From Aquificaceae bacterium (GTDB lineage Bacteria; Aquificota; Aquificia; Aquificales; Aquificaceae), in the NCBI GenBank assembly GCA_015490155.1, contig WFYI01000012.1:1-33058 (forward strand): DNA of 33,058 nucleotides, written 5' to 3'. Below are positions 1,348-5,235 of this stretch, in pieces. Both the position numbers and the translations under genes were made by a program. Position 1 is the stretch's first letter. Each line of letters starts with the position of its first letter. The notes beneath the pieces were generated by a model. The model saw only the letters and a program-made list of their open reading frames with translations. It was not told the origin of the DNA and searched no databases.

Positions 1348-2112
1348 ATGGATGTAGGAACGATTATCGGCATAGGCGGAGCTTTCTTAATGATAGCGAT
1401 ATCTATAGTTATAGGCGGAAGTCCGACCGCCTTTATAAACATACCCTCCATATTCATAGTCGTCGGTGGTGGAATGGCTGCTGCTTTAGGGAATTTTCCA
1501 CTAAAATCCTTCATCTCGGGAGTAACCTCAATAAAGGATGCCTTCCTGTGGAAACCCCCGGACTCTTTGGAGACTATCAACTTTCTCGGAGAACTTGCAA
1601 GCAAGGTCAGAAAAGAGGGAATTCTCTCCCTTGAGACCGAGATAGATACCTTCTACGAAAAAGACCAACTTTTGGGGGATATGATAAGGATGCTCGTGGA
1701 CGGGCTTGAGCTTGAAGAGATACGCTCGAGCGTGGAGGGGGCTATAGCCCAGATAGAGGAAGAGCTATCTACAAAAGTCGCAGTGTGGGAGAAGCTGGCA
1801 GACCTATTCCCCGCATTCGGGATGATAGGTACTTTGATAGGTCTTATCCAGATGCTCCAAAACCTGAATGACCCTTCCGCGCTGGGACCCGGTATGGCTG
1901 TTGCTCTGATAACTACGCTGTACGGAGCTATCCTCGCTAATGCTTTTGCTATACCAATAGCTGGTAAGCTAAAGAAAATGAAAGATACGGAAATTCTCTA
2001 CAAGAACATCTACTTCCTCGCTATTGAGGGCATACAGAAGGGGACAAACCCCAACATTCTAAGGCAATCCCTCTCGATTATGCTGGGCGTCGAGGTTCAG
2101 GAGGAGGCTTAA
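1348..2112 (+). CDS. motA: Flagellar stator protein MotA
   Basis: Inner-membrane stator subunit that, with MotB, forms the ion channel driving flagellar rotation. The 254 residues fit MotA/PomA: two N-terminal hydrophobic segments (about 5-22 and 28-48, with the GGG-rich turn IVVGGGMAAALGNFP), a large cytoplasmic Glu/Lys-rich domain (about 60-145), and two C-terminal membrane segments containing FPAFGMIGTLIGLIQML and MAVALITTLYGAILANAFA, the best conserved part of the family. It is followed with no gap by motB1 and then motB2, so it heads a stator operon. In A. aeolicus one MotA likewise serves two MotB proteins and was reported to work with Na+; the ion used here cannot be read from the sequence alone. 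Confidence 0.96.
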   Translation: MDVGTIIGIGGAFLMIAISIVIGGSPTAFINIPSIFIVVGGGMAAALGNFPLKSFISGVTSIKDAFLWKPPDSLETINFLGELASKVRKEGILSLETEIDTFYEKDQLLGDMIRMLVDGLELEEIRSSVEGAIAQIEEELSTKVAVWEKLADLFPAFGMIGTLIGLIQMLQNLNDPSALGPGMAVALITTLYGAILANAFAIPIAGKLKKMKDTEILYKNIYFLAIEGIQKGTNPNILRQSLSIMLGVEVQEEA

Positions 2113-2811
2113 TTGAAAAAGAAGGCGGAGGAGTGTAAAAAGCCTCCCGCATGGTTGACGAGCTTCGGAGACCTGATGTCCCTGCTTCTTACTTTCTTTA
2201 TCCTCCTTTACTCCATGAGCATAATATCCCTTGAGAAGTTCTTCCAGGTTCTAAAGGGACTGGTGGCGGCGTTTGGGGGTTCACAGGTCGTATATCAAGA
2301 AAATGCCCCCGTGGGAACCAACGTACCCTTGAACATGGAAAATATGTACCCAAGACTGAAAAAGTTCAAAAAGCTAAAGGAGGAGATTAAAGAACTCGAA
2401 AAGGCGTTAAACGAACAAGGTATAAAGAGCGATTACACAGTATTGGGTATGTGCATGAAGCTAAGGGTCAACACGGACAGGATATTTCCCTCCGGAAGTG
2501 AGAATCCCTATCCTCAGGCTATACCGATACTGAACGAGATATGTATGCGACTAAAGCCCTTTTCACTACCTCTAATAATAGAGGGGCATACGGACTCAAG
2601 ACCGATAAATACCGAAAGGTTCCCTACAAACTGGGAGCTGTCGGCGGCAAGGGCTGTAAGCGTTCTAAGGCTCTTTAAAAGCTGCGGATATCCGGAGGAA
2701 CTCCTTGCAGCCGCAGGCTACGGAGAGTACAGACCCTTAGTTGCGGAAGACACCCCTGCGGCACGGGAGATGAACAGGAGGATAGAGTTCTGTATAAAGT
2801 TGAACCCTTGA
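2113..2811 (+). CDS. motB1: Flagellar stator protein MotB, copy 1
   Basis: MotB anchors the stator to peptidoglycan and carries the ion-binding Asp. It starts at TTG directly after the motA stop, with a strong AGGAGGAGG (2099-2107) inside the end of motA. Seen: a short cytoplasmic tail, a single membrane segment (about 20-40) with Asp20 in SFGDLMSLLL at the position of the essential channel Asp, a linker/coil (80-115), and a C-terminal OmpA-like domain. That domain has both residues that contact diaminopimelate in OmpA-type domains: Asp of GHTD and Arg of LSAARA. The membrane segment is almost identical at DNA level to that of motB2. Confidence 0.95.
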   Translation: MKKKAEECKKPPAWLTSFGDLMSLLLTFFILLYSMSIISLEKFFQVLKGLVAAFGGSQVVYQENAPVGTNVPLNMENMYPRLKKFKKLKEEIKELEKALNEQGIKSDYTVLGMCMKLRVNTDRIFPSGSENPYPQAIPILNEICMRLKPFSLPLIIEGHTDSRPINTERFPTNWELSAARAVSVLRLFKSCGYPEELLAAAGYGEYRPLVAEDTPAAREMNRRIEFCIKLNP

Positions 2812-2821
2812 GGTTATAGCC

Positions 2822-3511
2822 ATGGCTTTTCAGAAAAAGGAAGAGTGTCCTAAGATTCCCGCATGGCTAACGAGCTTCTCAGACCTGATGTCCCTGCTTC
2901 TTACTTTCTTTATCCTCCTTTACTCCATGAGTTCCTTGGACGTGGCACAGCTTGAGCAGTATCTTTCCTATTTTCAGGGGGAAAAGGCAAAGTTCTCAAA
3001 GAAAACATCTATACTTGAACCTATACAGCCTTTCCCAAAGGATGTTGCCCTTAAAGTTAAGAAGAGGATAAAAAGCGTCCTACCTCCGTGGTCTTACCAG
3101 ATAGTTGTAACGGCGGAGTTCGTTAAGCTTAGATTGTTCGATAAGATACTCTTCGAGGAAAACTCCTTTTACCTGACACCTAAGGCTGTAAAAACCGTAC
3201 GGGGAATATCGGAGGTTCTATCGAACCTGAAGGGAAATTACAGTATCAGGATAGAGGGACATGTAAGCCCCAGCACGGAGGTTAAACCTACACAGATTGT
3301 AAAAGACAAATGGGAGCTTTCGGTAAGAAGAGCCACAGAGGTCTTAAAAGAAATGGTAAAAAACGGTATAGACCCCCATAAGCTTTCAGCAATAGGCTAC
3401 GGCGACTCCCGTCCATTGTACACTTGGAAGCAACCCATACTCATGCAGAGAAACAACCGGGTGGAGGTATACATATTTCTGGGAAAACTGAAAAGTACCA
3501 ATCCAGAGTGA
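2822..3511 (+). CDS. motB2: Flagellar stator protein MotB, copy 2, divergent peptidoglycan site
   Basis: Second MotB paralog, 10 bases after motB1. Asp21 in SFSDLMSLLL is the expected ion-binding residue, and the single membrane segment (21-38) matches motB1 closely. The C-terminal OmpA-like domain (about 100-220) is divergent: the usual GHTD is GHVS (146-149), while LSVRRA (166-171) and the NNRVEV end are kept. One of the two residues that normally bind diaminopimelate is therefore missing. It could form mixed stators with MotB1 or bind the wall differently. The pairing of one motA with two motB genes is also known in A. aeolicus. Confidence 0.93.
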   Translation: MAFQKKEECPKIPAWLTSFSDLMSLLLTFFILLYSMSSLDVAQLEQYLSYFQGEKAKFSKKTSILEPIQPFPKDVALKVKKRIKSVLPPWSYQIVVTAEFVKLRLFDKILFEENSFYLTPKAVKTVRGISEVLSNLKGNYSIRIEGHVSPSTEVKPTQIVKDKWELSVRRATEVLKEMVKNGIDPHKLSAIGYGDSRPLYTWKQPILMQRNNRVEVYIFLGKLKSTNPE

Positions 3512-3539: not shown

Positions 3540-4283
3540 ATGAAAGTAGCCTGCTTCACCAACAAAGGCAAAGTAAGGAGCAATAACGAAGACTCTATAC
3601 TCGTAGGTGAATTGCTCTTTAGTGAAAAGGACTTCCGAAGCTGTGAGTGTGTGAATGTGGAAGGTTCTAAGCTGCTGTTTGCCGTCGCAGACGGAATGGG
3701 CGGCCACGCAAAAGGTGAGGTAGCCTCAAGGCTCGTTCTTGAAAGCTTAAGGGACTCAGACCCGGCGTGCAAAGAGGAAGAAATTAGAGAAGCTTTAGCT
3801 CAGGCGCGCAAAAACTTGGAGGAATACGTGAAATCGCACCCGGAGTCTTACGGAATGGGTTGTGCGATTGCTGGTTTGGTAGTAGAAGGAGGCAAAGGTA
3901 TAGCCTTTAATGTAGGAGATTGTAGGGCTTACAGATTTATAAATGGCAAGCTCGTGAAGCTCACCAGAGACCACTCGGCGGTAGAGGAGTTGGTGCTTGA
4001 CGGCGTAATAACTCCTCAGGAGGCGAGAACACATCCCCAGAGGAATATCCTAACCTCTGCAGTGATAGGGGACGGATACACGACGGAGCTTAAGGTCTTC
4101 ACTACGGAAGTGGACAAGACAGCTGGCGGGAGGTTTTTGATATGCAGCGATGGACTGTGGGACGAGCTTGAAGATGATGAGATAGAGTCCTGCATGGCCA
4201 CGGAAAACCCGTGCCAAGAGCTTTTAAAGGTCATTGATACCAAACCTCTAAGGGACAACGTAAGTTTTATACTTTTACCTTAA
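3540..4283 (+). CDS. PP2C-family Ser/Thr protein phosphatase
   Basis: Metal-dependent protein phosphatase reversing Ser/Thr phosphorylation in the cytoplasm. The 247 residues show the PP2C motifs in order: RSNNED (13-18), FAVADGMGGHAKGE with metal-binding Asp51-Gly52, GDCRAYR in the middle, HPQRNILTSAVIG, CSDGLWD with a metal Asp, and DNVSFILL with the final Asp at the C-terminus. It lies 28 bases after motB2 on the same strand and may be read with the stator genes. No Shine-Dalgarno is visible; TAAAAT at 3517-3522 and TATTAT at 3533-3538 could be -10 elements. Its last 17 bases overlap the convergent FHA gene, a plausible phosphopeptide-binding partner. No kinase is in the window. Confidence 0.93.
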   Translation: MKVACFTNKGKVRSNNEDSILVGELLFSEKDFRSCECVNVEGSKLLFAVADGMGGHAKGEVASRLVLESLRDSDPACKEEEIREALAQARKNLEEYVKSHPESYGMGCAIAGLVVEGGKGIAFNVGDCRAYRFINGKLVKLTRDHSAVEELVLDGVITPQEARTHPQRNILTSAVIGDGYTTELKVFTTEVDKTAGGRFLICSDGLWDELEDDEIESCMATENPCQELLKVIDTKPLRDNVSFILLP

Positions 4284-4722
4284 GGGCAACCTGAGAGGAT
4301 AGCTTGATTACGTCTCCGTTTTTTATCTCTTGCCCGCTTCCCTGCGGCACGGGCTTATCGTTCACGAAGGTTCCGTTTGTGCTCCCCACATCTTCCACTA
4401 ACCACTTATCGCCCTTTTTATAGAACCTTGCATGTCTTCTGGATACGGTTTTAAATCCCCTTAAGCTTTCCGCTCCTATACCTTGCCTTCCTACCACATC
4501 TCCACTCTTTACCACTATGGAAAAGCCATCTCCCAGCAGGGTAAGTGTATCTGAAATTACTACAGTTCTCTCTTCTATTTCTTCTTCAGGCTCTCGGTTT
4601 GCACCTTCTTCTACTTCTTCATCAACCGGCTCAACACCCGTTAGGTCAGCCATACATTCCTTGCACACTATATCGTCTTCAGGATTCCTCGTTCCGCAAG
4701 AGGGGCAGACCTTGTAGCCCAT
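4267..4722 (-). CDS. Zinc-ribbon and FHA-domain protein
   Basis: 151 residues. The N-terminus has a four-Cys ribbon (Cys6, Cys9, Cys20, Cys23 in CPSCG...CKEC). An acidic linker (about 30-52) follows, then an FHA domain (about 53-151) with GRQ, VSRRHARF and STNGTFVN, which carry the Arg, Ser, His and Asn that recognise phosphothreonine in this fold. It probably binds phosphorylated partners and may itself be a phosphorylation target. It converges on the PP2C gene with a 17-base overlap. The specific pathway cannot be told. No Shine-Dalgarno; TATCAT lies 10 bases before ATG. Confidence 0.9.
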   Translation of the reverse strand: MGYKVCPSCGTRNPEDDIVCKECMADLTGVEPVDEEVEEGANREPEEEIEERTVVISDTLTLLGDGFSIVVKSGDVVGRQGIGAESLRGFKTVSRRHARFYKKGDKWLVEDVGSTNGTFVNDKPVPQGSGQEIKNGDVIKLSSQVALKVKV

Positions 4723-4788: not shown

Positions 4789-5235
4789 GTGATGAAAAAG
4801 CTCGTAGTTATCTTCTTATTCCTCGCATTCAGCGCCGGTTTCCCTAAAGAGACGGGTTTTACCCAGCAGGACAGGGAAAGGCTTATAAGGCTTGAGACTA
4901 CACTGAAGGTGTTTATGGAGCAAACTGACAAGCGTCTTAAGGAACTCAGGGAAGATATGAACAGAAGGTTTGAACAGGTAAACAGAGAAATAGATAGACT
5001 CGTTCAGATAATGATAGCTGTGTTTGCCGGGCAGGTGGGACTTGTAGGCGCAGTGATAGCCTTTGCCTGGTGGGACAGAAGGACGATTATCAGGGAAGCT
5101 AAAAGACAAACCTTAGACGAGCTTGAGAGGGAAACCAAGCCTGAGAAGCTCCGAAGGCTCTTAAACGTCCTGAGGGAGAAAGCCAAAACGGACGCAGAGC
5201 TTAGAGAGATACTTAAAAAGGAAGGGCTTTTGTAA
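4789..5235 (+). CDS. Coiled-coil membrane protein of unknown function
   Basis: Not recognised. 148 residues: a hydrophobic signal-like start (MKKLVVIFLFLAFSAGF), a charged heptad-like coiled coil (about 26-72), one membrane segment (about 73-95) ending in Trp-Trp, and a Lys/Glu/Arg-rich helical tail (97-148) that should face the side opposite the coil. If the first segment is cleaved, the coil is periplasmic and the tail cytoplasmic. The start may be GTG at 4789 or, more likely, ATG at 4792. TATACT (4773-4778) and TATAAA (4778-4783) are close upstream. It is followed by 122 bases and pdxJ, with no functional link visible. Confidence 0.75.
   Translation: MMKKLVVIFLFLAFSAGFPKETGFTQQDRERLIRLETTLKVFMEQTDKRLKELREDMNRRFEQVNREIDRLVQIMIAVFAGQVGLVGAVIAFAWWDRRTIIREAKRQTLDELERETKPEKLRRLLNVLREKAKTDAELREILKKEGLL

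Follow-up and report, generated by a model that had tools for sequence, protein, structure and literature searches.

Within-genome homogenisation of the plug/transmembrane segment of tandem motB paralogs, very probably by recurrent gene conversion

The mot cluster and its repeated segment

The sequence studied is a 33,058-nt stretch of DNA, referred to here as the window, and its genome is labelled G000 in the comparative set. The window contains a motA-motB1-motB2 cluster (Table 1). Both motB1 and motB2 present the hallmarks of MotB stator subunits, based on profile matches to Pfam MotB_plug and OmpA, and these two genes gave the only MotB_plug matches in the window's genome, which is 96.5% complete. 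The top NCBIfam match of motA was PomA, under the family cut-off. The only other MotA_ExbB-family match in the genome lies on a separate contig (G000:C27:489-812) and is perhaps a TolQ/ExbB protein, and no second MotA adjoining a MotB was seen among the matches to this family. Just past the mot genes, the interval 3540-4722 encodes a PP2C-type phosphatase (+) and an FHA-domain protein (-) whose genes share 17 bases at their 3' ends; the FHA-domain protein gave a weak zinc-ribbon match under the cut-off, and a 148-aa protein at 4789-5235 gave no Pfam match at E 0.001.

Table 1. Features of the mot cluster in the window
Feature	Position	Strand	Description	Profile match
motA	1348..2112	+	254 aa, first gene of the cluster	Pfam MotA_ExbB E 5.7e-26
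motB1	2113..2811	+	232 aa, plug/transmembrane segment and OmpA-like domain	Pfam MotB_plug 1.1e-15, OmpA 2.6e-11
motB2	2822..3511	+	229 aa, plug/transmembrane segment and OmpA-like domain	Pfam MotB_plug 6.7e-17, OmpA 2.2e-15
Conversion segment (putative), motB1	2145..2219	+	75 nt; exact 51 nt starts at 2169	
Conversion segment (putative), motB2	2857..2931	+	75 nt; exact 51 nt starts at 2881	
Gly19 codon GGA, motB1	2167..2169	+	precedes Asp20; paralog-specific, not homogenised	
Ser20 codon TCA, motB2	2879..2881	+	precedes Asp21; paralog-specific	

Comparing the two motB genes, we found that 2169-2219 of motB1 and 2881-2931 of motB2 are identical over 51 nt, and that the 75-nt segments around them differ at exactly four bases, located in a Leu codon (TTG/CTA, 2155 and 2157) and in the Gly/Ser codon (GGA/TCA, 2167 and 2168). 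A sequence-only reading of this DNA had described the 51-base identity and four differences in the flanking 24 bases (from 2145 and 2857), and both were exact on recheck. Same-strand repeated 20-mers in the window run from 2169/2881 to 2200/2912 and number 32, which is just what the 51-nt tract alone yields. Considering the codon usage of the window (9,892 codons from 32 ORFs), 19 of the 21 comparable segment codons coincide, compared with an expectation of 6.5, and codons 9-24 would all match with a probability of 2.5e-8, which agrees with the reading's claim that protein constraint alone is insufficient for the identical third positions. Beyond the segment, 44 aligned codons encode the same residue, excluding Met and Trp, and 20 of these are identical against 15.7 expected, so that the remainder of the two genes is strongly diverged, as had also been claimed.

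Synonymous codons shared within genomes

We searched 136 genomes of the phylum, including the window's own, and found relatives in 125. Loci were read in 70 of the 125 genomes, and 69 of these carry tandem motB1-motB2 with the segment intact; G072 was left out because its contig ends before motB2. The remaining 55 genomes lie outside the set, with truncated genes (G008, G022, G118 and others) or only a distant or weak match. In at least three genomes (G063, G091 and G013) the locus or contig stops before motB2 is complete, which affects the rest-of-gene figures alone. Some tests used a 63-pair set that lacks the six genomes of genus g12, which have Val inside the motB1 motif, and the main tests were repeated on all 69. 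In these six genomes (L085, L101-L105), Val replaces Leu in MotB1 (SLVLTFF) and MotB2 retains Leu. The channel Asp is present in 69 of 69 genomes for each paralog. Among the 37 loci from outside the genus (L004-L040), a MotB segment was found by pattern in 13 and a second one in none, with flanks of about 3 kb.

To place the duplication in time, we built a quick tree of the 69 genomes from alignment column 26 to the end, in which motB1 and motB2 form two clades with one label change and an SH-aLRT of 100. Based on this split outside the segment, the duplication is old, predating the five sampled families, and is thus older than the species compared, as in concerted evolution. A recent duplication of motB in this lineage, or a loss followed by re-duplication, would account for the identity itself and nothing further, but it is refuted by the two clades and keeps virtually no probability.

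In the segment (25 codons), motB1 and motB2 of the same genome share synonymous codons at 0.570 (69 genomes), whereas between different genomes of the same genus the values are 0.445 for motB1-motB2, 0.465 for motB1-motB1 and 0.487 for motB2-motB2. Between families they are 0.324, 0.318 and 0.317, respectively. In the rest of the gene, motB1 and motB2 share 0.460 within a genome; the same-genus values are 0.450, 0.511 and 0.523, and the between-family values are 0.374, 0.390 and 0.375, in the same order. As such, outside the segment orthologs are more alike than paralogs of the same genus or genome, as expected for divergence without conversion, and the reverse holds in the segment. Paralogs of one genome are therefore more alike there than orthologs between species, with the synonymous sites homogenised too, which is the pattern of concerted evolution. 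This comparison is the check that the sequence-only reading had proposed, and it favours gene conversion.

When motB2 was shuffled 20,000 times among genomes of one genus (64 genomes), the within-genome mean of the segment, 0.578, was not reached by any shuffle (permuted mean 0.472, sd 0.0141). Outside the segment, 0.466 was observed against 0.451 permuted, and 454 of 20,000 shuffles reached the observed value; this small excess owes something to common codon usage or to weak conversion in those parts. Both paralogs have a protein segment that hardly varies, so chance together with protein constraint and codon bias could be thought to produce identical codons. However, given the permutations across genomes and the match probability of 2.5e-8 in G000, this account is already refuted and we leave it next to no weight.

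The excess is concentrated in the segment. In the segment, motB1 matched the motB2 of its own genome strictly better than any other of the 69 motB2 genes in 20 of the 69 genomes; in the remainder of the gene it did so in 3. In windows slid along the gene (63-pair set), z values were 7.2, 6.6 and 3.8 at the segment and -1.3 to 2.8 in the other windows scored; several further windows had too few codons. After the 11 genomes with the longest runs were removed, the excess stayed (0.523 vs 0.435, p 1.1e-5; 47 genomes, 63-pair set), which suggests older, eroded conversions. A tree of the segment contained 7 within-genome sister pairs, the G000 pair not among them, against 0 in each of six control windows, although this count is a weaker test because in the control windows the protein sequence diverges as well. 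Shuffling positions within genomes identified 15 of 69 genomes at a 5% false discovery rate. In this test, homologous positions match at 0.570 and the same residue at other positions of the same genome at 0.298; the test probably overstates the effect, since homologous matches across genomes of the same genus (0.445) are also above 0.298, and we relied on the cross-genome null instead. A likely reason for that difference is slow exchange between the Ser and Leu codon boxes.

The sequence-only reading had offered selection on the DNA itself beside gene conversion, and of the two it is conversion that the within-genome excess in 69 genomes supports. Selection at the DNA or mRNA level, acting through codon choice for membrane insertion or through RNA structure, would fix the same synonymous codons in both genes, and both the partial likeness of segment codons across same-genus genomes (0.445) and the higher matching at homologous positions than at the same residue elsewhere would fit it. 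However, sharing in the segment between families is only 0.317-0.324, below that of the rest of the gene (0.374-0.390), with orthologs at 0.317-0.318 much like paralogs at 0.324, so that codons conserved in distant orthologs, which the reading had named as evidence against conversion, were not found. At 14 of the 17 positions listed at least three codons are used, the Asp and two Phe having two. Moreover, the tract sequence differs among the converted lineages shown, G086/G089 apart, which contradicts selection for a fixed sequence. We therefore consider selection of this kind very unlikely.

We also considered that short-read assembly could have merged the two segments, as each of the nine runs of 30 nt or more comes from a draft assembly (rounded contig counts of 30 to 230). 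Against this, in the 63-pair set, the excess holds in assemblies with 10 contigs or fewer (0.513 vs 0.401, 7/10 positive, p 0.042) and with 30 or fewer (11/15 positive, p 0.005), and run length is unrelated to contig number (rho 0.10, p 0.42). G122, assembled as one contig, has a 25-nt run, and the more natural outcome of merged paths would be loss of the interval, not one copy overwritten by the other. An assembly artefact thus seems highly improbable.

Recurrence of the tracts and the Gly/Ser codon

Identical runs of at least 30 nt were found in 9 of 69 genomes, belonging to 7 genera: G112 (81 nt), G000 (51), G124 (46), G089 (38), G016 (38), G073 (37), G086 (35), G119 (33) and G084 (32). Across genomes of the same genus, such runs appeared in 2 of 398 comparisons, both between G086 and G089 (63-pair set). 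Most other same-genus relatives have short runs, and G117, beside G119, has 29 nt. In G063, the genus mate of G000, the longest run measures 17 nt and 11 of 21 codons are identical. G001 shows no homogenisation (5 of 20 codons), and likewise some other genomes show none. Each converted lineage shown has a different tract sequence except G086 (L087) and G089 (L081), which have nearly the same one; their motB1 orthologs share 20 of 22 codons there compared with 90 of 171 in the remainder of that gene, and over the rest of the genes G089 is closer to G090 than to G086. This common tract would be a between-species transfer or an old shared event, and, counted once, it leaves at least eight events. 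As for direction, of 5 informative codons in G000, 4 agree with motB2 of G063 and 1 with its motB1, which points weakly to motB2 as the more likely donor to motB1 in G000; informative codons are few, and the direction is mixed among the events.

Immediately ahead of the invariant Asp, 64 of the 69 pairs have Gly in MotB1 with Ser in MotB2, and the exceptions are two S/S, two G/G and one S/G. In the 59 genomes that keep Gly/Ser and whose genus holds two or more of them, homogenisation was significant both to the left of this codon (codons 1-7, z 5.1) and to its right (codons 9-25, z 6.7), with 0 of 5,000 shuffles reaching the value on each side, as an aggregate rather than a per-genome result. 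In G016, codons 1-20 of the two genes are identical but for the one base that sets Gly or Ser, although the left part may be older because its relative G021 also has identical codons 1-7. The two G/G genomes are G112 and G113, a pair that includes the most fully homogenised genome. In the simplest reading, selection apparently removes conversions that erase the Gly/Ser difference; it is also possible that separate tracts on either side happened to stop at this codon. The conservation hints that the residue may have a distinct job in each protein. As a more speculative proposal, to which we give rather low probability, MotB1 and MotB2 would form a heterodimer in one MotA ring, where conversion would keep the helices alike to match MotA, the Gly/Ser difference would make the ion paths unequal and selection would shield that codon. 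The Gly/Ser codon marks a position beside the channel Asp where having a different residue in each paralog seems to be important, and it is a direct target for motor biologists.

Proposed mechanism and comparison with known systems

This analysis showed a within-genome excess that is concentrated in the segment and recurs, and old tandem paralogs with recurrent, lineage-specific gene conversion in the plug/transmembrane segment very probably explain these findings. Protein constraint would hold about 25 codons round this segment nearly invariant in both genes, so that a single short island of DNA similarity, its two copies separated by 712 bp in G000, would remain in genes that have diverged elsewhere. 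Non-reciprocal conversion by intragenomic recombination within the island would then copy about 30-80 nt, separately by lineage, and synonymous sites would drift apart between events. In G000, a conversion after the split from G063 would have made the 51 nt identical. We infer that conversion is confined to the segment because recombination needs long near-identity, which only the constrained segment offers, and that recombination is involved rather than, for example, template switching between nearby repeats. Selection for homogenisation would be unnecessary, but having MotA as a common partner may impose a degree of it.

Gene conversion is an established route to concerted evolution. The likeness of tufA and tufB spans the whole gene, and the conversion tracts of TLR1/TLR6 are longer than those in motB. 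In the sections consulted of each source, the nearest analogue is mtrA-1/mtrA-2 of methanogens (PMC4632066), ancient paralogs of one operon in which, as in motB1/motB2, one domain is homogenised over the long term and the other stays distinct; the homogenised mtrA domain is a non-transmembrane one, whereas in motB it is about 25 plug/transmembrane codons with one codon kept different. A survey of 26 prokaryotic genes (PMC6053082, in part) likewise describes recurrent paralog conversion across an order, nuoL being given for Aquificales, but those genes are alike over nearly their full length, whereas motB is homogenised in a short segment only, and motB is absent from the 26-gene list in Tables 1 and 2. 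In the same portion of that source, tufA/tufB also undergo recurrent intragenomic conversion in bacteria, Aquificae included, with copies in different genomic contexts, unlike tandem motB1/motB2. TLR1/TLR6 are likewise tandem paralogs with conversion whose products pair with a common partner, though mammalian (PMC2077338, in the part consulted).

In Aquifex aeolicus, according to the consulted part of PMC4525482, the gene order motA-motB1-motB2 is as in the window, the N-terminal/transmembrane regions of MotB1 and MotB2 are 97% identical with Gly20 vs Ser20, the periplasmic regions are 23% identical, and MotB chimeras with MotA form an ion channel that drives rotation. The remark on likeness there is at the protein level in one species, whereas the present comparison covers synonymous codons in 69 genomes; the terms 'gene conversion' and 'synonymous' have zero occurrences in its main text. 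The consulted part of PMC4987623 contains nothing on conversion, and no report of conversion in motB was found among the titles and abstract openings listed in searches of open-access papers. The motB genes thus provide a clear bacterial case in which constraint would leave a small island of DNA similarity in ancient tandem genes and recombination would rewrite it phylum-wide. Caution is also needed with trees or rates estimated from the membrane segment of motB in these organisms, as they mix the paralogs. In an exploratory look at the sliding windows of the 63-pair set, a weak second rise (z 2.1-2.8) lay at columns 137-185, round the IEGHTDSRP motif of the OmpA-like domain, where rare conversion perhaps occurs at the other conserved island.
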